A stretch of DNA of 30,443 nt, from IMG/VR virus record IMGVR_UViG_3300030117_007108, positions 1-30,443 of that record, one strand, 5' to 3'. The DNA comes from a virus. Made by a program: the position numbers and the translations under genes. Below the pieces are notes generated by a model. That model did no database searches. It saw only the letters and a program-made list of their open reading frames with translations, and was not told the DNA's origin. This document shows, piece after piece, positions 3,217 to 15,618 of the stretch (position 1 is its first letter; each line of letters starts with the position of its first letter).

Positions 3217-3224
3217 TATTTAGA
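3217..3224 (-). promoter_or_regulatory. Candidate late promoter for the gp4 operon (TCTAAATA, minus strand)
   Basis: On the minus strand the same TCTAAATA word is found, beginning at the first base of the gp54 start codon and reading toward gp4. It is the exact mirror of the word at 3187-3194. Start at about 3210 would give a leader of about 23 bases for gp4. The two together explain how the 36-bp gap can serve both operons. Confidence 0.5.
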
Positions 3225-3895
3225 TGGTTCGTCCTAAGAAAATAGCTGATATCAAACCAATACTGACTAATGTAGCTCAAACATCTCATTATCAGGTGTT
3301 CTTTGATGGTCTATCAAGAGACCTATTTCAGTTTCTTGGTACAAAGGGGGTAAATAGAAGATTTATAACGGAGAACGCTGGATTATTATGTAATCAAGCA
3401 TCAATACCAGGTAGTTCTCTTGCAACAACTGATATATTTGGTAATTTTACGGGTGTACAAGAAAAATTCGCACATACAAGAATATTTACAGAGTTATCAC
3501 TTGATTTCTATGTTGATAAAGATTATAAAATGATAAAGTTTTTTGAACACTGGATAGATTACGTTGCAACTGGATCAGAAAAGTCACCAACTTCACCTTT
3601 AAAGAAAACTGACTTGGGATATTTTTATCGAATGAGATATCCAAGAGGTTCGGCAGGTTATAAATGTGACAAGACAAAAATTATAAAGTTTAATGTTGAT
3701 TATCGTTCAGAGATAGAATATACTTTCTTTGGGTTGTTCCCAATCAATTTTTCTTCTACTCCTGTTCAGTATGGTAGTTCTGATGTGCTGAGAACTAATG
3801 TAACGTTCAGTTATGAGAGATATATTGCAGGAGAGGAAACAAGTCTTTCTTTTAATAGAAAGAAGAGTGAGAACATTAAAAAGGCAAGAGTCTAA
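3224..3895 (+). CDS. 54: Baseplate tail-tube initiator gp54-like protein
   Basis: 223 residues; T4 gp54 is longer (320). gp54 sits on gp48 and nucleates the tail tube; both are related to the tube protein. The pattern fits a tube-type beta fold: YQVFFDGLSRDLFQFL near the N-terminus, NQASIPGSSLATTDIFGNF and KFAHTRIFTELSLDFYVDKD in the middle, then FFEHWIDYVATGS and a closing strand LRTNVTFSYERYI. The ASIPGSSLAT / F.ELSLDFYVD combination is the usual tube-initiator signature in T4-like marine phages. It stands alone between the divergent promoter and an intrinsic terminator at 3925-3951. A tube protein (gp19-like) is the main alternative, but the proximity to gp4/gp48/gp26 favours gp54. Confidence 0.7.
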   Translation: MVRPKKIADIKPILTNVAQTSHYQVFFDGLSRDLFQFLGTKGVNRRFITENAGLLCNQASIPGSSLATTDIFGNFTGVQEKFAHTRIFTELSLDFYVDKDYKMIKFFEHWIDYVATGSEKSPTSPLKKTDLGYFYRMRYPRGSAGYKCDKTKIIKFNVDYRSEIEYTFFGLFPINFSSTPVQYGSSDVLRTNVTFSYERYIAGEETSLSFNRKKSENIKKARV

Positions 3896-4010: not shown

Positions 4011-4730
4011 ATGCCATTACCAAAAATTGCAACACCGACATATGAGTTGGTTTTACCTTCTTCTGATCGAAAAATAAAATATCGACCATTTTTAGTTAAA
4101 GAGGAGAAGATATTGATTATTGCAATGGAATCTGAAGATCAGAAACAGATAACGAATGCAATTAAAAGTGTAATTAATAATTGTATATTATCAAGAGGAA
4201 TTAAGGTTGATAAATTATCTACTTTTGATATCGAATATCTCTTTTTAAATATAAGGGGAAAATCAGTTGGTGAGAATGTCGAAGTTCTCATTACATGTCC
4301 TGATGATGAAAAAACACAAGTTCCTGTGATGATTCCACTTGATGAAATTAAAGTTCAAAAACATCCTGATCATAACAAAGATATAAAATTAGATGATAAT
4401 TTAGTATTAAGAATGAAATATCCTTCTTTATCAGAATTTATAAAAAGTAATTTTGATTTAACTGGTAATATTGGAGTTGAGGAGTCATTTGATTTAATTA
4501 TCTCATGTATTGATCAAATATACAATGAAGAAGAATCTTGGACATCTGCGGATTGTACAAAAAAGGAAATGGTTGAGTTTTTGGATCAATTAAATTCAAA
4601 ACAATTTAAAGAGATTGAAAATTTCTTTGATACCATGCCTAAATTGTCTCATACCGTTAAAGTGACGAATCCAGAGACAAAGGTAAAAAGTGATATCGTT
4701 TTAGAAGGGTTATCGTCTTTTTTCGAGTAG
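4011..4730 (+). CDS. 26: Baseplate hub assembly protein gp26
   Basis: 239 residues; T4 gp26 is 208. gp26 is required for baseplate hub assembly and is thought to act as an assembly factor rather than a lasting component. The start PLPKIATPTYELVLPSSDRK with KYRPFLVKEEKILIIAMES after it is diagnostic of the T4 baseplate-protein family that includes gp26. Later features are IEYLFLNIRGKSVGE, a zinc-less Cys-containing VLITCPDD segment and a helical C-terminal third. The gene follows a perfect late promoter. Its last codons TCT TTT TTC GAG TAG hold a canonical -1 slippery heptamer, and the -1 frame leads directly into the next ORF, so a longer 300-residue product is possible. The ribosome-binding site is weak. 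Confidence 0.88.
   Translation: MPLPKIATPTYELVLPSSDRKIKYRPFLVKEEKILIIAMESEDQKQITNAIKSVINNCILSRGIKVDKLSTFDIEYLFLNIRGKSVGENVEVLITCPDDEKTQVPVMIPLDEIKVQKHPDHNKDIKLDDNLVLRMKYPSLSEFIKSNFDLTGNIGVEESFDLIISCIDQIYNEEESWTSADCTKKEMVEFLDQLNSKQFKEIENFFDTMPKLSHTVKVTNPETKVKSDIVLEGLSSFFE
4718..4724 (+). other. Candidate -1 ribosomal frameshift site T TTT TTC at the end of gp26
   Basis: The zero-frame codons TTT TTC (4719-4724) are preceded by T4718, giving the X XXY YYZ form. The gp26 stop TAG is one codon further (4728-4730). In the -1 frame the last stop is TGA at 4691-4693, and from there the frame is open through CGA GTA GGT ATG into the 59-residue ORF. The product would be gp26 residues 1-238, then Arg-Val-Gly, then the 59 residues (300 in all). 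Only a weak short stem can be drawn downstream (GGCTC/GAGTT). Confidence 0.6.
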
Positions 4731-4732
4731 GT

Positions 4733-4912
4733 ATGGCTCATGCGAGTTTAGAGTCATACTATAAGATTAACTTTGCTTTGATGCAGCACCATAAATATTC
4801 ATTAACAGAGATTGAAAACATGATACCATGGGAAAAAGATGTATATATTGCTCTTTTAGAACAATATATTGAAGAAGAAAACTTAAAACAAAGACAACAA
4901 GGTAATGGATAA
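4733..4912 (+). CDS. Small ORF, 59 aa, -1 frame relative to gp26; possible frameshift partner (gp51-position)
   Basis: ATG at 4733, TAA at 4910-4912, 59 residues. It begins MAHASLESYYKINFALMQHH and ends with the helical stretch MIPWEKDVYIALLEQYIEEE followed by a Gln/Arg-rich tail. The 'YY.INF.LMQHHKYSL.EIE.M.PWE.D.Y..LL..Y..EE' pattern is typical of the small downstream partner of tail-assembly chaperones. It starts two bases after the gp26 stop (TAGGTATG), has only a weak GAG ribosome-binding site, and its last 8 bases overlap the next gene. It may be made separately by coupling, or as a gp26 extension through the slippery site at 4718-4724. It lies where T4 has gene 51 but is far shorter than T4 gp51 (249). 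Confidence 0.82.
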   Translation: MAHASLESYYKINFALMQHHKYSLTEIENMIPWEKDVYIALLEQYIEEENLKQRQQGNG

Positions 4913-6263
4913 CTCTCCAGCATATGAAAATTTTAGTAATAAGATGACTTCAATGCGAGGTGGTGTTGGTGGTAGCCCTATTTTAAAGAGAAGAAAGATA
5001 AATGCAAATAAAGTTTTTAATAGAGAGGGATCAGATCCTCTTGTCAAGCAAATAGAAAAAAACTCAAGAGAGATAGTATTATTAAAAAACGTCGTTATAT
5101 TAAATACTAATCGAGTTTCTCAGATATTAGTAAATGACGCTGAGAGAGAAAAGTCAATACAAAGAGAAGCACAAAGAAAACAAATATTAAAAGATGAAAA
5201 AGACAAATCTAAAAAGAAAGAGGGATTATTAGAAGGTGTTGGTAAATCGATAAGTAAAACTCTACTTAAACCTGTAGAGGCAGTTGGTAAAACCGTGAAG
5301 GGTGTATTAGGTAGATTAGCTGATGCTTTTATGTTACTTTTTGGTGGATTTATAGCAAATAAAGGAATTAAAATGATTCAGGCACAAATGTCTGGTGATA
5401 CTGAAACATTCAAAAAGATGAGAAATACTATAATTAAGTCAGTCGCAGTGGTTGGTGGTATATTTCTTGCTTTAAATGGTGGTCTATTGGCATTACCTAG
5501 CATTATATCTGGTGTGGCAAGTGCCGTCATTTCTATTGGTGGTGCGATATTAGGATTTCTGGCAAGTCCAGCAGGATTGATTGCACTTGGACTGGCAGCG
5601 GGGGTTGGTGTGTTGTTTGCTATGAAAAAGGGTGTTGACGCTGCTTCAACCAAACTCGCTGGTGGTAGCAAATTTCAGCAAAAATTTAATGATCTTAAAG
5701 GTCCTCTAACAGAAGCTGGCATTACAGTAACAGGTACAGGTAAAGATGAAAAGTTTTATGTTGCTGACAAATATCAGTCACAAGGTGGATCAAAAAGTAA
5801 TTTTACCATAGAAAAAGCAGGAACACCCGAACAAAAAGAAATAGTCGCAAATTATATTATGAAAAGAGATAAAGTAATAGGTATAAGAGATAATATGAGA
5901 GGTGATATGGAAGCAGCGGAGAATAAATTAAGAGAAACGGCTAGTAAAAAGTCTTTAAGAGATGGTACATTCAGTGACGCAGTGGATATAGAAAAAAAAG
6001 AAATAAGAGATAAGTATGAAGCACAAATTAATGGTATGACGAGATCTCCTAAAATAAATTCTAATCCTAATAAAAAAGTGAGTGTCTCCACACTTAATGA
6101 AGCACCTCCAAATATTGTGGATGCAACTACGAATGTAGGTGGTGGTTCAGTTGGAACGTCTGGTAGTGGAAATCTAGCATCTTCAGTTCCAAATATATCT
6201 GCATCAAATTCTGATAATAATTTCACATTATACTCACAAACTCAATATAATATTTTAGTATAA
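4905..6263 (+). CDS. Putative tail structural protein with coiled-coil and hydrophobic core; tape-measure candidate
   Basis: 452 residues, no confident family. Residues ~40-130 are highly charged and helical (Lys/Glu rich, coiled-coil-like). The segment K132-K153 (KGVLGRLADAFMLLFGGFIA then NK) is followed by a long hydrophobic stretch at about 179-240 made of Gly, Ala, Leu and Ile, enough for two to three membrane-type helices. The C-terminal ~200 residues are charged, then Gly/Ser/Asn rich. A protein with coiled coil plus hydrophobic helices directly after the hub/tail chaperone genes and before the hub protein fits a tape measure or tape-associated protein (T4 gp29 position). The next gene encodes a protein with the same 22-residue motif. 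Function is inferred from context; a generic 'structural protein' label is the safe reading. Confidence 0.85.
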   Translation: MDNSPAYENFSNKMTSMRGGVGGSPILKRRKINANKVFNREGSDPLVKQIEKNSREIVLLKNVVILNTNRVSQILVNDAEREKSIQREAQRKQILKDEKDKSKKKEGLLEGVGKSISKTLLKPVEAVGKTVKGVLGRLADAFMLLFGGFIANKGIKMIQAQMSGDTETFKKMRNTIIKSVAVVGGIFLALNGGLLALPSIISGVASAVISIGGAILGFLASPAGLIALGLAAGVGVLFAMKKGVDAASTKLAGGSKFQQKFNDLKGPLTEAGITVTGTGKDEKFYVADKYQSQGGSKSNFTIEKAGTPEQKEIVANYIMKRDKVIGIRDNMRGDMEAAENKLRETASKKSLRDGTFSDAVDIEKKEIRDKYEAQINGMTRSPKINSNPNKKVSVSTLNEAPPNIVDATTNVGGGSVGTSGSGNLASSVPNISASNSDNNFTLYSQTQYNILV

Positions 6264-6264
6264 T

Positions 6265-7425
6265 ATGGCAGCATCAGCAGTTTTACAAATCGGAGCAAAA
6301 ATAGCATCAAAGTCTGCAGGTGCAATGAAGGGTGTCGCTAAAAGTAGTAAGAGATTGACAAAATCTGTACAAAAAAATATTAAAATTAAGAAAAGACTGA
6401 GAGCAACCTCTGAAAGGTTTCAAAAGTATAGAGAAGAGAAGAAAAAAAGACAGGAAAAAGAATCTCTATTAGAACAAGAAAAATCTCAAAAAAAGGGAGA
6501 GGGTCAAAAAACAAAAGGAACTTCTGGAAAAGGACCATTAGAAAGATTAATGTCACTCATTCAAATACTTTTGGTTGGATTTGTACTTAATAAATTACCT
6601 CAGATTATTGATTTTATTAAAAAAGTAATTAAAGTAATTCGTGATATTGTAGATAAATTTAAAGCATTTTTTGATGGTGTGATTGGATTTTTTAAATCTA
6701 TTGGTAAGGTTATTGGAAAAGCTTTTGATGTTATATCAAATTTAAATTTTAATGATATTGGAGATGTAATTAAGGGAGCATTTGGAAAACTAAAAGATGC
6801 ATTTACTAATATAAAAGACAAACTTTTAGATGGTGTTAAGAGTTTTCTTGGATTAAAGAAGAAAAAAGTAAAAAAAGAAATAAATCGAGAGTTGACAGAT
6901 AAAGATTTAAAGGATAAAGAACTTAAATCAAGTGTCAGTGATGTTCAAAAAACTATGGCATCAAAATCTGATGAATTTAATGATACAATAAAAACAATTG
7001 AAAAGGCAGGAACAGGTGTTGATATTGTCGGACCTGAAAATTCTAATTTAACTGAGCAAGTTCAATCAACTATCACCAAAGAAAGTGACGGAAAACCTAC
7101 AAATTTAAAAATGGAAGGATCTTCTAGTGGTAAATCAGGTAGTGGTAAGTTTACCATTATAAGAGAGGATGGATCCACAACAACTGACTTTAGGGAAATT
7201 AAAGCAGCAAAAGAGGCATATCAGTTAAATATAAGTAAACCTAAAAAAACAGTGAGCACGACCACAATCACACCAGAGAGGAAATCTAAAAATACTGTAA
7301 TGATTGTTGGAAACAAAGGTGGTCAGTCTCAATCACATGGAGGAATGAGATCTAAAGGTAAAACTAAGATTATAGTTCAAAAAGATAACAGTATTAAAGA
7401 TCAATTCGCCTTATCTCTATTTTAA
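6265..7425 (+). CDS. Putative tail structural protein related to the preceding one; tape-measure partner candidate
   Basis: 386 residues, no confident family. Residues 1-90 are strongly basic and helical (repeated Lys/Arg/Glu, coiled-coil-like). K89-K110 (KGPLERLMSLIQILLVGFVL then NK) aligns without a gap with K132-K153 of the previous protein, 10 identities in 22. It is followed by successive amphipathic helices (residues ~110-200, many Phe/Ile/Lys) and a charged, Ser/Thr/Gly-rich C-terminus ending in NSIKDQFALSLF. The ATG lies one base after the previous stop (TAATATG). Pore-like amphipathic helices and tandem position suggest a role inside the tail tube or in DNA delivery, but that is inference. 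Confidence 0.85.
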   Translation: MAASAVLQIGAKIASKSAGAMKGVAKSSKRLTKSVQKNIKIKKRLRATSERFQKYREEKKKRQEKESLLEQEKSQKKGEGQKTKGTSGKGPLERLMSLIQILLVGFVLNKLPQIIDFIKKVIKVIRDIVDKFKAFFDGVIGFFKSIGKVIGKAFDVISNLNFNDIGDVIKGAFGKLKDAFTNIKDKLLDGVKSFLGLKKKKVKKEINRELTDKDLKDKELKSSVSDVQKTMASKSDEFNDTIKTIEKAGTGVDIVGPENSNLTEQVQSTITKESDGKPTNLKMEGSSSGKSGSGKFTIIREDGSTTTDFREIKAAKEAYQLNISKPKKTVSTTTITPERKSKNTVMIVGNKGGQSQSHGGMRSKGKTKIIVQKDNSIKDQFALSLF

Positions 7426-11646: not shown

Positions 11647-14600
11647 ATGAGTTTAACTGATCTTGATAATTATGAAAGTCGAAAAGCAGATTTTGAAGCA
11701 TTTAAAGATACATTACCTAAAGAACCATCAGGTGATGTAAAAAAAGAATATTGTGTTGGTTGTTTTCAAAAAAGTGATTGGGAGTTCATTCATGCTGAGT
11801 TGATGAAGGATGGATCATTAGAGGATAATATACCGACGGATAAATGTGAGTGTGTAAATGATTGTCTTCAAAGTGATGTAAGAGGAATTTATCTATTAAC
11901 AGATACAGAAGCAATTGAACTTAGATCAAATTCAAAAGTAGATTATGTAAATGTCAATATATGTGCATATCCAGGAACTTATCAGAGTAACCCAGACGAT
12001 TTAGTAGAAGTTAGTCTAACCGATAGATATTCATCAAATGTAAAAAATCAACAAAAAATAACTAATACTTCTGGTGGTATTCGTGAAAATTTTAATTCTG
12101 ATAAATTGAATAGATGTTCAGCTCAATTATATCGACACTCGGCAAAAAAAAATCCTTGGGTGACATTAGGAGATCCAACATCCGTAGTTAATAGTAAATT
12201 ACCTCAATATGGAACAGGATTAGATGTTGATGTAATTGTATGTGATCAGGATATGTGGTTTGGGCATATTGAATTCTGCAATCCAAGTGCAATTACAAAT
12301 ATAAAAACTTATGATGCTTCACAAGGAGATGGTGTAGGGGGAAATGCTTCTACTGAAGCACCGAGTAATTACGTTGGTGGTAATGCTTTAAGAAGTGGAT
12401 TTTCATCGTCTTCCACAACTGGTATGTGTGACTTATTGGATTTAGTTTTAGATGCTCCTTATTATCTTGATTCTGCATGGTTTGAGGCAAGTCCTAGTAC
12501 AAGATTAACTACTCGTTGGGATGGAACAAAAGTTCCAGTTGAGTCTGTTGCAAAGGAATGGTGGTCTGATGCATCAAAAAGATCTGCTGCTTATGCAAGT
12601 ATAGGAACTGTGACTCCTGACTCAGGTGCTATTATAAATCAAACCACTCCATACGTTAGACTTTATGTTGGAGATACTGTCAACTTTAATATGTCAAATG
12701 TTGGCACTGAACACGCATTTTACATTAAAACAGCATTAACATCTGGAACTGGAGATCAGGTCACTACTCCAGCTGCCACAGGTCAAGGTGCTAATGGAAA
12801 CTCGACAACATCATGGACACCCAACACTGCAGGAGTTTATTATATTCGGTGTGCTAATCACTCTATGATTGGATATATTATTGTTAAAGATAATCCCTGC
12901 ACGGGCACGGGATCGACATCAACATTTGATATAACGATCACTGCACCTAACAGCAGTAATTGGTTTGCAAACGGACCACATAGAGGATCCTATAATAGGG
13001 ATAGATGTAATGGAACTAATAAAAGTTATAAAGGTGGAACTGGAAGCCATGGAACACCATGTGCTTCTCAGGCATACGGGAGACAGTATGGTTGGGCTTA
13101 TAATGCAAATAAATGGTTTTTAAATCTTTATGGATCAGGTGGTGTATATTTTGAAGTTGGTTTTGATTTACAAAAAATATTTCATCAGACTAAACCGACA
13201 CATCCAACTCATGGGAATAAAAATCCAACAATCTCTAGTAATAGTTGGGGGAGAAGATTTAGACCAAGTACGTTAGGATCAAGTGGTTACTATTTTTATC
13301 GACCTACTTCGATTGATGGCACTACAACTGGAGTTCAATATACCAGTTGGGATGCGGATGGTAACACTGACGGTACAGGAGGGACTGCTCCAAGATTCAT
13401 GACCAATCGAACTCTTGATCAGGGTGGTAGTGCTATCCAGTGTGAACCTGTAAGTGGATCAACTATGACTGCTGCAAATGAAATGACTGCAGCAGGAGTT
13501 ATTTTTGTATGTTCTGCTGGAAACCGTAATCAAAAGATGGTTAAAAGCACTCACTCAGATTATAATAATTACGTTGGTTCTGGTTCTAACAGTTCTTTAA
13601 GTTCAACACAATTTTTTGTTTCTTTTGATGGACTTACTTACCATAAAACTCTCAATAGGGGAGGTTTTCCATCTGCATTTAATAATTCAATTGTAATAGG
13701 AGCATTAGATGATGATTTTTCATCTGGGAAAGAGAGAAAAGTAAATTATAGTGGTAGTGGTGAATCTGTTGATCTTTATTCTGTTGCAGATGATACATTT
13801 GCAGCTTCTGATAATAGAACACTGAGTTCTCATTCTCGTTATGATTCTTTTTATACTTATAATTCTGTACAATCTCCTCGTAGTTACGATAGATATTTTA
13901 ATGGAACTAGTTCTGCCTGTCCAGTTGCAGTTGGTTTAATTGCCACAAAATTACAATATAATCGAACTTGGACTTCTGCAAATATTAAAAGTTGGTTATC
14001 ATCAATTGGTCAACAAGATACAAATGATTTTTATTATGGTAATGAATCAACCAGTGCAAATGATACAAATTGGTCTGATAAAAATAGTATACAGGGTGGA
14101 TTGGCAATTGTTCCTTTTGATACTGTTATTGATACAACTAATCCAACTTTAAGTAGTTCTTCTCCATCTAACGATGCTACAGGAGTCGCAATAGACACAA
14201 ATATTGTTCTTAATTTTTCCGAATCAGTAGATGTAGAAAGTGGAAATATTGTTATCTATAAGGCATCAGATGATTCCGTTATAGAAACGATTGACGTAAC
14301 AAGTGGTCAGGTTACGGGATCGGGAACTAGTCAGATAACAATAAACCCAAGCAGTGATTTAGCAAACGGCACAGTTTTTTATGTTCAAATTGCTACTACA
14401 GCCTTTGATGACGCTGGAGGTAATTCTTATGCAGGAATATCAGATAAAACAAGTTTAAGATTTACCACTGTGGCTGCTGATACCACTAATCCAACTTTAA
14501 GTAGTTCTGTTCCATCTAATAATGCTACAGAAGTCGCACTAAATGCGAACATCGTTCTTAATTTTTCTGAAGCAGTAGATGTAGAAAGTGGAAATATTGT

Positions 14601-15618
14601 TATCTATAAGGCATCAGATGATTCTACCATAGAGACTATTTCTGTAACAAGTGGTCAAGTCACAGGAGGTGGAACTAGTCAGATAACAATAAACCCAAGT
14701 GGTAATTTAGAAACAAACACAACTTTTTATATTCAAATTGATGCTACAGCCTTTGATGATGCAGCAGGTAATTCTTATGCAGGAATATCAAATAAAACAA
14801 GTTTAAGATTTACCACTGTGGATAGTGATATTACTAATCCAACTTTGAGTAGTTCTGTTCCATCTAACAATGCTACAGGAGTCGCAATAAACACAAATAT
14901 TGTTCTTAATTTTTCTGAGGAAGTAATCGCACAAAGTGGTGGAAATATTGTTATCTATAAGGCATCAGATGATTCTGTCATAGAGACTATTTCTGTAACA
15001 AGTGATCAGGTGACGGGATCGGGAACTGATCAGATAACAGTAAACCCAAGCAGTGATTTAGCAAACGATACAGTTTTTTATGTTCAAATTTCTGCCACTG
15101 CCTTTGATGATGCTTCAGGCAATTCTTATGCAGGAATATCAAATAAAACAAGTTTAAGATTTACCACTGTGGTTGGTGATACAACTAATCCAACTTTAAG
15201 TAGTTCTTCTCCATCCAATGGTGCTACAGGAGTCGCAATAGACACAAATATTGTTCTTAATTTCTCTGAAGCAGTAGATACAGAAAGTGGAAATATTGTT
15301 ATCCATAGGGCATCAGATGATTATATTGTAGAAACGATTGACGTAACAAGTAATCAGGTGACGGGATCGGGAACCAGTCAGATAACAATAAACCCAAGTG
15401 GTAATTTAGCAACAAACACAACTTTTTATATTCAAATTGCTGTCACTGCCTTTGATGATGCAGCAGGTAATTCTTATGCAGGAATATCAGATAAAACAAG
15501 TTTAAGATTTAGAACTGTCATTCCACCTGATCCTGATCCTCCTAACGTTGAAGGAGAATATTCTGTGAGATTTACAGGTAATGGACTATCTTTTGGTGGT
15601 CAACTAGTTATTAAGTAA
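11647..15618 (+). CDS. Subtilisin-like (S8) serine protease with inserted cupredoxin-like domain and four Ig-like repeats
   Basis: 1323 residues. The subtilase core has all four expected residues: Asp200 in VDVIVCDQDMWFGHIEF (aligns with V.VIDSG...HPDL), His468 in GSHGTPCAS, oxyanion Asn626 in FVCSAGNRN and Ser755 in NGTSSACPVAVG. Between Asp and His, residues ~320-412 resemble a cupredoxin: a VGDTVNF strand, His356 in GTEHAFYI, and Cys402/His405/Met407 in YYIRCANHSMIG. Upstream, C36-x2-C39 and C67-x-C69-x3-C73 are followed by LTDTEAIELRSNSKVDYVNV, reminiscent of the end of an I9 propeptide. Residues ~830-1293 are four ~116-residue Ig-like (SbsA/Big_5-type) repeats; a short tail follows. No signal peptide is visible. 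Placed after the spike gene, it is probably virion-associated and may cleave host surface or fibre proteins; its substrate is unknown. Protease fold confidence is high, copper binding is uncertain. Confidence 0.88.
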   Translation: MSLTDLDNYESRKADFEAFKDTLPKEPSGDVKKEYCVGCFQKSDWEFIHAELMKDGSLEDNIPTDKCECVNDCLQSDVRGIYLLTDTEAIELRSNSKVDYVNVNICAYPGTYQSNPDDLVEVSLTDRYSSNVKNQQKITNTSGGIRENFNSDKLNRCSAQLYRHSAKKNPWVTLGDPTSVVNSKLPQYGTGLDVDVIVCDQDMWFGHIEFCNPSAITNIKTYDASQGDGVGGNASTEAPSNYVGGNALRSGFSSSSTTGMCDLLDLVLDAPYYLDSAWFEASPSTRLTTRWDGTKVPVESVAKEWWSDASKRSAAYASIGTVTPDSGAIINQTTPYVRLYVGDTVNFNMSNVGTEHAFYIKTALTSGTGDQVTTPAATGQGANGNSTTSWTPNTAGVYYIRCANHSMIGYIIVKDNPCTGTGSTSTFDITITAPNSSNWFANGPHRGSYNRDRCNGTNKSYKGGTGSHGTPCASQAYGRQYGWAYNANKWFLNLYGSGGVYFEVGFDLQKIFHQTKPTHPTHGNKNPTISSNSWGRRFRPSTLGSSGYYFYRPTSIDGTTTGVQYTSWDADGNTDGTGGTAPRFMTNRTLDQGGSAIQCEPVSGSTMTAANEMTAAGVIFVCSAGNRNQKMVKSTHSDYNNYVGSGSNSSLSSTQFFVSFDGLTYHKTLNRGGFPSAFNNSIVIGALDDDFSSGKERKVNYSGSGESVDLYSVADDTFAASDNRTLSSHSRYDSFYTYNSVQSPRSYDRYFNGTSSACPVAVGLIATKLQYNRTWTSANIKSWLSSIGQQDTNDFYYGNESTSANDTNWSDKNSIQGGLAIVPFDTVIDTTNPTLSSSSPSNDATGVAIDTNIVLNFSESVDVESGNIVIYKASDDSVIETIDVTSGQVTGSGTSQITINPSSDLANGTVFYVQIATTAFDDAGGNSYAGISDKTSLRFTTVAADTTNPTLSSSVPSNNATEVALNANIVLNFSEAVDVESGNIVIYKASDDSTIETISVTSGQVTGGGTSQITINPSGNLETNTTFYIQIDATAFDDAAGNSYAGISNKTSLRFTTVDSDITNPTLSSSVPSNNATGVAINTNIVLNFSEEVIAQSGGNIVIYKASDDSVIETISVTSDQVTGSGTDQITVNPSSDLANDTVFYVQISATAFDDASGNSYAGISNKTSLRFTTVVGDTTNPTLSSSSPSNGATGVAIDTNIVLNFSEAVDTESGNIVIHRASDDYIVETIDVTSNQVTGSGTSQITINPSGNLATNTTFYIQIAVTAFDDAAGNSYAGISDKTSLRFRTVIPPDPDPPNVEGEYSVRFTGNGLSFGGQLVIK
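14134..15525 (+). repeat. Four tandem ~348-bp repeats encoding SbsA/Big_5-type Ig-like domains
   Basis: Units start at about 14134, 14482, 14830 and 15181 (period 348, 348, 351 bp). Each begins with T.NPTLSSS.PSN.AT, contains NIVLNFSE.V and GNIVI(Y/H).ASDD, then VTSxQVTGxGTxQIT(I/V)NPS and ends NSYAGIS(D/N)KTSLRF. The third unit carries one extra codon (SGG for SG). DNA identity between units is high enough that unequal recombination could change the copy number. Confidence 0.9.

Follow-up and report, generated by a model that had tools for sequence, protein, structure and literature searches.

A candidate -1 frameshift at the end of gene 26 would join gp26 to a gp51 extension in a probable tail assembly chaperone gene of T4-like marine phages

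Introduction

Does the 59-codon open reading frame (ORF) that follows gene 26 in a T4-like marine phage encode a protein of its own, or is it the far end of a longer protein that is reached only by ribosomes slipping back one base? The question is raised by a 30,443-base virus record (IMGVR_UViG_3300030117_007108, positions 1–30,443), referred to here in its entirety as the window, in which gene 26 ends one codon past the heptamer T TTT TTC. We consider it highly probable, on comparative grounds, that positions 4011–4912 of this marine T4-like phage form a gene for a tail assembly chaperone, and that a -1 slip on this gene yields a 300-residue gp26-gp51 fusion in addition to gp26.

Gene organization and the slip site

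The gp26 gene (4011–4730, + strand) encodes a short form of 239 residues belonging to the T4_baseplate family. In profile searches it matches PF12322 at E=1.1e-75, with 254.5 bits against a curated cut-off of 24.5, and phrog_150 at E=7.5e-83. Its last codons read TCT TTT TTC GAG TAG, where TTT TTC GAG are codons 237–239 and the stop occupies 4728–4730. The slippery heptamer T TTT TTC (4718–4724, + strand) lies in phase with these codons as X XXY YYZ; the initial annotation had placed it near the end of gp26, and we obtained the same coordinates and phase. Among window ORFs of at least about 100 residues, only gp26 has an X XXY YYZ heptamer in phase among its final 12 codons. No stop interrupts the -1 frame between 4694 and the end of the 59-residue ORF (4733–4912). 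A slipped ribosome would add 62 residues (4724–4912, + strand; RVGMAHASL...), including the 59-residue ORF, to the first 238 of gp26, giving a product of 300 residues with the junction Phe238-Arg-Val-Gly-Met. The open frame, the product length and the junction first proposed for this locus were thus reproduced exactly.

The 59-residue ORF matches phrog_634, annotated as 'baseplate hub assembly catalyst' (gp51), at E=7.8e-29 over profile positions 60–116 of 121, and by this homology it is the C-terminal part of gp51. It also matches the C-terminal end of the gp26 profile phrog_150 (positions 240–278 of 282). The gp51 protein of T4 (249 residues) matches PF12322 over residues 1–201 (3.9e-52) and phrog_150 over residues 3–248 (2.6e-84), so that gp51 consists of a gp26-like domain to which the same C-terminal extension is attached, and this is why the short ORF matches the end of a gp26 profile.

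The gene order in the window is tail tube, gp26/51 and then long ORFs. Directly 5′ of gp26 is a gene for a tail-tube-like protein (3224–3895, + strand), clearly recognized by Phage_TTP_2 (E=8.7e-18) and by the tail tube profile phrog_45 (E=3.3e-35). The two ORFs on the 3′ side are weakly tape-measure-like in the profile searches, and from their position and these weak matches they are plausible tape measure genes. The first candidate (4905–6263, + strand), chosen by position, starts 8 nt before the end of the -1 extension and encodes hydrophobic stretches; profile searches assigned it to no confident family. The second (6265–7425, + strand) matches the tail protein profile phrog_1204 (E=1.9e-5) and, weakly, the tape measure profile phrog_4200 (E=0.21).

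Elsewhere in the tail module, adjoining the hub genes, the window encodes an unusual protease (11647–15618, + strand). Residues 444–786 of this 1323-residue protein match a subtilase domain (Peptidase_S8, E=7.3e-14); the protein also has four Big_5 repeats, which are Ig-like, and a stretch resembling CopC.

Conservation of the heptamer among relatives

Seven scans of viral contigs, one of which gave no matches, together with named phages supplied 265 related loci besides the window. Single-query searches for distant relatives found two loci with the gp26 of KVP40 and two with that of a Stenotrophomonas phage; the gp26 of Vibrio phage D532, used in the same way, found none. Counts were made on the 255 loci with a complete gp26 end and a detected downstream ORF, a few of which are near-duplicates. 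T TTT TTN is present, and the downstream ORF is -1 relative to gp26, in 252 of the 255, a figure that overstates the independence of the evidence because the loci share ancestry and include those near-duplicates. The heptamer is T TTT TTC in 229 loci, T TTT TTT in 16 and T TTT TTA in 7. Named phages include examples with T TTT TTC (S-SKS1, S-CAM1, Aeromonas 65.2, Astolliot and LG08), T TTT TTA (XG4) and T TTT TTG (phiM9 and RHph_N34). P-SSM2 is another relative that shares the window's site. An alignment of gp26 3′ ends had been suggested as the check on the slip, with loss of the heptamer or of the -1 phase in close relatives as the result that would speak against it. The alignment shows both kept in those 252 loci while the codon before Phe-Phe drifts, and the proposed slip came through the search for such losses.

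Three loci depart from T TTT TTN. In L069 (3001–3894 of that locus; contig IMGVR_UViG_3300049043_000112), two bases present in L038 are missing from the slip site, and gp26 and gp51 are fused in frame as a result. The 236-kb contig holds one copy of the family, and the allele is either a genuine constitutive fusion or an assembly error. In L255 there are five T residues where the near-identical L254 has six (both Stenotrophomonas phages) and the gp51 frame is altered; the missing T is possibly a homopolymer sequencing error. In Vibrio phage D532 (L088, 2983–3900), and likewise in its relative K397 (L276), the -1 extension ORF is kept, the heptamer is absent, and stop and start overlap as TAATG. 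The next annotated genes in D532 and K397 are a short hypothetical gene and then a gp5-like hub/lysozyme gene, and not a long ORF.

Start codons in the downstream frame

For statistics on individual positions, 145 representatives with limited shared sequence were chosen once the three heptamer-less loci had been set aside. An ATG is present in the downstream frame of 78 of them, close to the gp26 stop. In another 64 of the 145, the frame contains no ATG, GTG or TTG between the heptamer and the conserved core. In these start-less lineages the extension could accordingly be made only as part of a fusion, or from a non-standard start. Their peptide, R-I-A-L-x-H..., includes residues encoded over the gp26 stop codon, and the residues across this stop, R-I/V-x-L/M, stay alike among the representatives.

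The 78 loci with a nearby ATG suggest one addition to the slip, in which ribosomes of lineages possessing that codon would not only slip to make the fusion but also re-initiate to make a free gp51-like protein of 59 residues. We regard this second product as unlikely: lineages without the ATG show no visible loss, and the Met with which the window's 59-residue ORF begins aligns with Leu in other loci.

It is far less likely that the 59-residue ORF encodes nothing but a small protein of its own, for which ribosomes re-initiate at ATG 4733, and that the heptamer is incidental. The window does have this ATG two bases past the gp26 stop, GenBank records of relatives list the extension as a separate gene, and D532 and K397 have the TAATG overlap and no heptamer. 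Against this stand the 64 start-less representatives and the Leu that often occupies the position of the window's Met; in addition, the ATG is enclosed in a hairpin (below), no purine-rich start signal precedes it at the customary spacing, and conservation of the heptamer would be needless. Other GenBank records carry no annotation of the gp51 extension, namely those of S-CAM1 (KU686192, L278), ACG-2014d, ACG-2014e, S-WAM1, S-WAM2 and S-CAM4; the extension of S-CAM1 contains no ATG. If slippage occurs at the end of gp26, many database records would carry either a false separate gene or none, as in S-CAM1, where gp51 is missing.

Candidate stimulators around the heptamer

A programmed -1 frameshift at the end of gp26, very likely from the comparison of related loci, gains further support from the surroundings of the heptamer. 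The heptamer was already in the initial annotation; two elements that it lacked, a purine-rich GA(A/G)GG upstream and a 10-bp hairpin downstream, are likely stimulators as judged from their sequence and conservation. The upstream element in the window is GAAGGG (4704–4709, + strand), a purine stretch resembling a Shine-Dalgarno sequence that lies 8 nt 5′ of the heptamer. It is a weaker version of the GAGG that ends 10 nt 5′ of the heptamer in 89 of 145 representatives. The Glu of the upstream Glu-Gly pair is written GAG in 89 of 123 representatives, compared with 35% elsewhere in the gene. In E. coli dnaX, a Shine-Dalgarno-like stimulator lies at about the same distance from the slip site.

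On the 3′ side, a spacer of 5 nt (4725–4729, + strand) separates the heptamer from the candidate hairpin (-12.7 kcal/mol, z -2.26), the 5′ arm of which (4730–4739, + strand) pairs with the 3′ arm at 4751–4760 (+ strand). Within the 5′ arm fall both the final base of the gp26 stop codon and the ATG that opens the 59-residue ORF. Because RNAalifold recovered only six of the stem pairs, the count was made against a specified structure. Across 64 distinct relatives, 94.9% of cells are paired, compared with 24–47% in slid controls. Two-sided change is limited to one stem pair, which covaries (28 UA, 25 GC and 10 AU, with one exception; 35 two-sided changes) with a score reached by none of 500 shuffles. 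The strong covarying stem is confined to the window's own clade and is weak in some other lineages. We discarded the idea of a 3′ hairpin common to all lineages, since in the P-HM1 group the stem is shorter and no compensatory changes are seen. Among all representatives, the 40 nt past the heptamer rank near the top of their own gene in fold strength, ahead of nearly every other stretch of it (median percentile 0.7%).

The same features bear on whether RNA polymerase, rather than the ribosome, slips on the T run and produces mixed mRNA. The six-T run is conserved and is longer in some relatives (L202–L206), as polymerase slippage would favor, but six bases are short for a polymerase, most loci have C as the seventh base, and the codon phase and the covarying hairpin with its 5-nt spacer fit a ribosome. 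We find polymerase slippage even less credible than re-initiation alone.

Codon usage at the slip site

The representatives share ancestry and leave out the exceptions, so the figures that follow describe the strength of the pattern and are not probabilities. The codon preceding Phe-Phe encodes Ser, Asn, Asp, Ala, Thr or His, and its third base is T in all 145 representatives, where codon usage predicts 61%. Among 57 conserved degenerate columns of gp26, Phe238 as TTC ranks first in codon bias and Phe237 as TTT third. Conservation of Phe237-Phe238 for the protein alone, with TTT TTC a mere codon preference, finds support in the constancy of the two amino acids and is barely conceivable given that TTT stands at 100% and TTC at 95% in these columns, that the commonest codon reaches only 53–92% in the other Phe columns, and that T4 gene 26, which lacks the heptamer, writes its Phe-Phe pair as TTC TTT.

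The second strongest codon bias in gp26 is at codon 3 (Leu; window 4017–4019), written TTA in 84% of representatives against an expected 31%. Perhaps this keeps the start region unstructured.

Discussion

The slip itself, its rate and the contribution of each stimulator are what we infer from this arrangement, and the course of translation is probably as follows. Most ribosomes would stop at 4728–4730 and release gp26, the short form. The hairpin at 4730–4760, lying at the mRNA entry, would hold up the ribosome on the heptamer, and a minority of ribosomes, their two sites occupied by Phe-tRNA and the slip helped by the purine stretch at 4704–4709, would re-pair one base back on T TTT TTC. These would continue to the end of the extension and complete the 300-residue gp26-gp51 fusion, the long form. 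In this way a single mRNA would supply short and long forms in a fixed ratio.

The two forms would probably cooperate in the manner of lambda G and GT, holding the tape measure or hub proteins and bringing in tail tube subunits. The site, its conservation, the covarying hairpin, the dependence of the start-less lineages on slippage and the homology of T4 gp51, a long form, to the whole fusion were computed here, and they lend strong support to the analogy with G/GT drawn when the locus was first described. The structure predicted for the in-frame fusion of L069 (pLDDT 87) matches predicted gp26-type proteins from many phages. Among the 50 PDB matches listed for it, the most probable (0.41) is 2ob9, the tail assembly chaperone of HK97, with a non-significant E=3.2, so the likeness is a hint only. 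A sequence search of the PDB found nothing.

For T4, gp26 and gp51 are listed as hub assembly chaperones in PMC3004832, which also refers to work that puts gp26 in the hub itself. Vladimirov, Gautam and Davidson (Virology 2022) identified gp26/gp51 as the tail assembly chaperones of T4-like phages, according to two papers that cite them, PMC10885494 and PMC12846349. From that work, PRFect (PMC10885494) reports T4-like phages in which a short gene is accompanied by a long, fused one in place of a frameshift, and PMC12846349 reports that in T4-like phages the short chaperone gene carries poly-T signals for a -1 slip. The initial annotation knew of no report for T4-like phages; to judge from these citing papers, that statement fails because the central idea was already in print. 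What is new here is a further member with strong comparative evidence, the gp26/gp51 chaperone idea itself being published. In the accessible literature, in which Vladimirov et al. 2022 is represented by the papers citing it, no description was found of paired stimulators, start-less lineages or an in-frame allele.

The comparison of these genomes makes a strong case that an abundant group of ocean viruses produces a tail assembly protein through ribosomal slippage. Slippage and gene duplication form a natural pair of ways to keep two forms of a protein in ratio.

Lambda G/GT likewise comprises a short form and a rarer C-terminal fusion made by a -1 slip late in the first gene, and both loci lie 5′ of tape measure genes, presumed ones in the window. 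They differ in that the window has T TTT TTC and a hairpin and belongs to a different phage group. Xu and colleagues are said to have described, in 2004, lambda G/GT together with other -1 frameshifted tail assembly chaperones. Phage P2, which likewise has a contractile tail, makes E/E+E′ by a -1 slip at T TTT TTG; this T6 site is nearly identical to that of the window, and within the window's family phiM9 and RHph_N34 even have T TTT TTG. To our knowledge, E/E+E′ is unrelated in sequence to gp26/gp51. The Vandenendeviridae/Andersonviridae, exemplified by phage Adele, also have a conserved poly-T -1 site ending a short gene (PMC12846349). The motif there is GTTTTT and the family is different; the parts of that paper available to us describe no covarying hairpin.

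The closest comparison is T4 itself, whose gp26 and gp51 belong to the same protein families as the window gene. BLAST with gp26 queries found neither T4 protein; profiles found both. In a pairwise comparison, T4 gp51 aligns with the in-frame fusion of L069 through the junction (E=5e-6). By sequence, T4 gp51 is the long form, equivalent to that of the window, and T4 gp26 is the form that lacks the extension. Two members of the family are present in T4 and one in each of the other nine records searched, including KVP40, P-SSM2 and phiM7. The simplest reading of these sequences is that T4 uses two genes where the phage of the window would use one gene and a slip. Our judgement is evenly divided on a broader proposal, in which the three-part marine signal (purine stretch, T TTT TTN and a covarying hairpin that buries a would-be start codon) sets the ratio of short to long form and represents the older state, and T4 gp26 and gp51 arose when a gene duplicate replaced the slip. 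In T4 the short and long forms are the products of two divergent genes without the heptamer, whereas in the window both would come from a single gene through the proposed -1 slippage.
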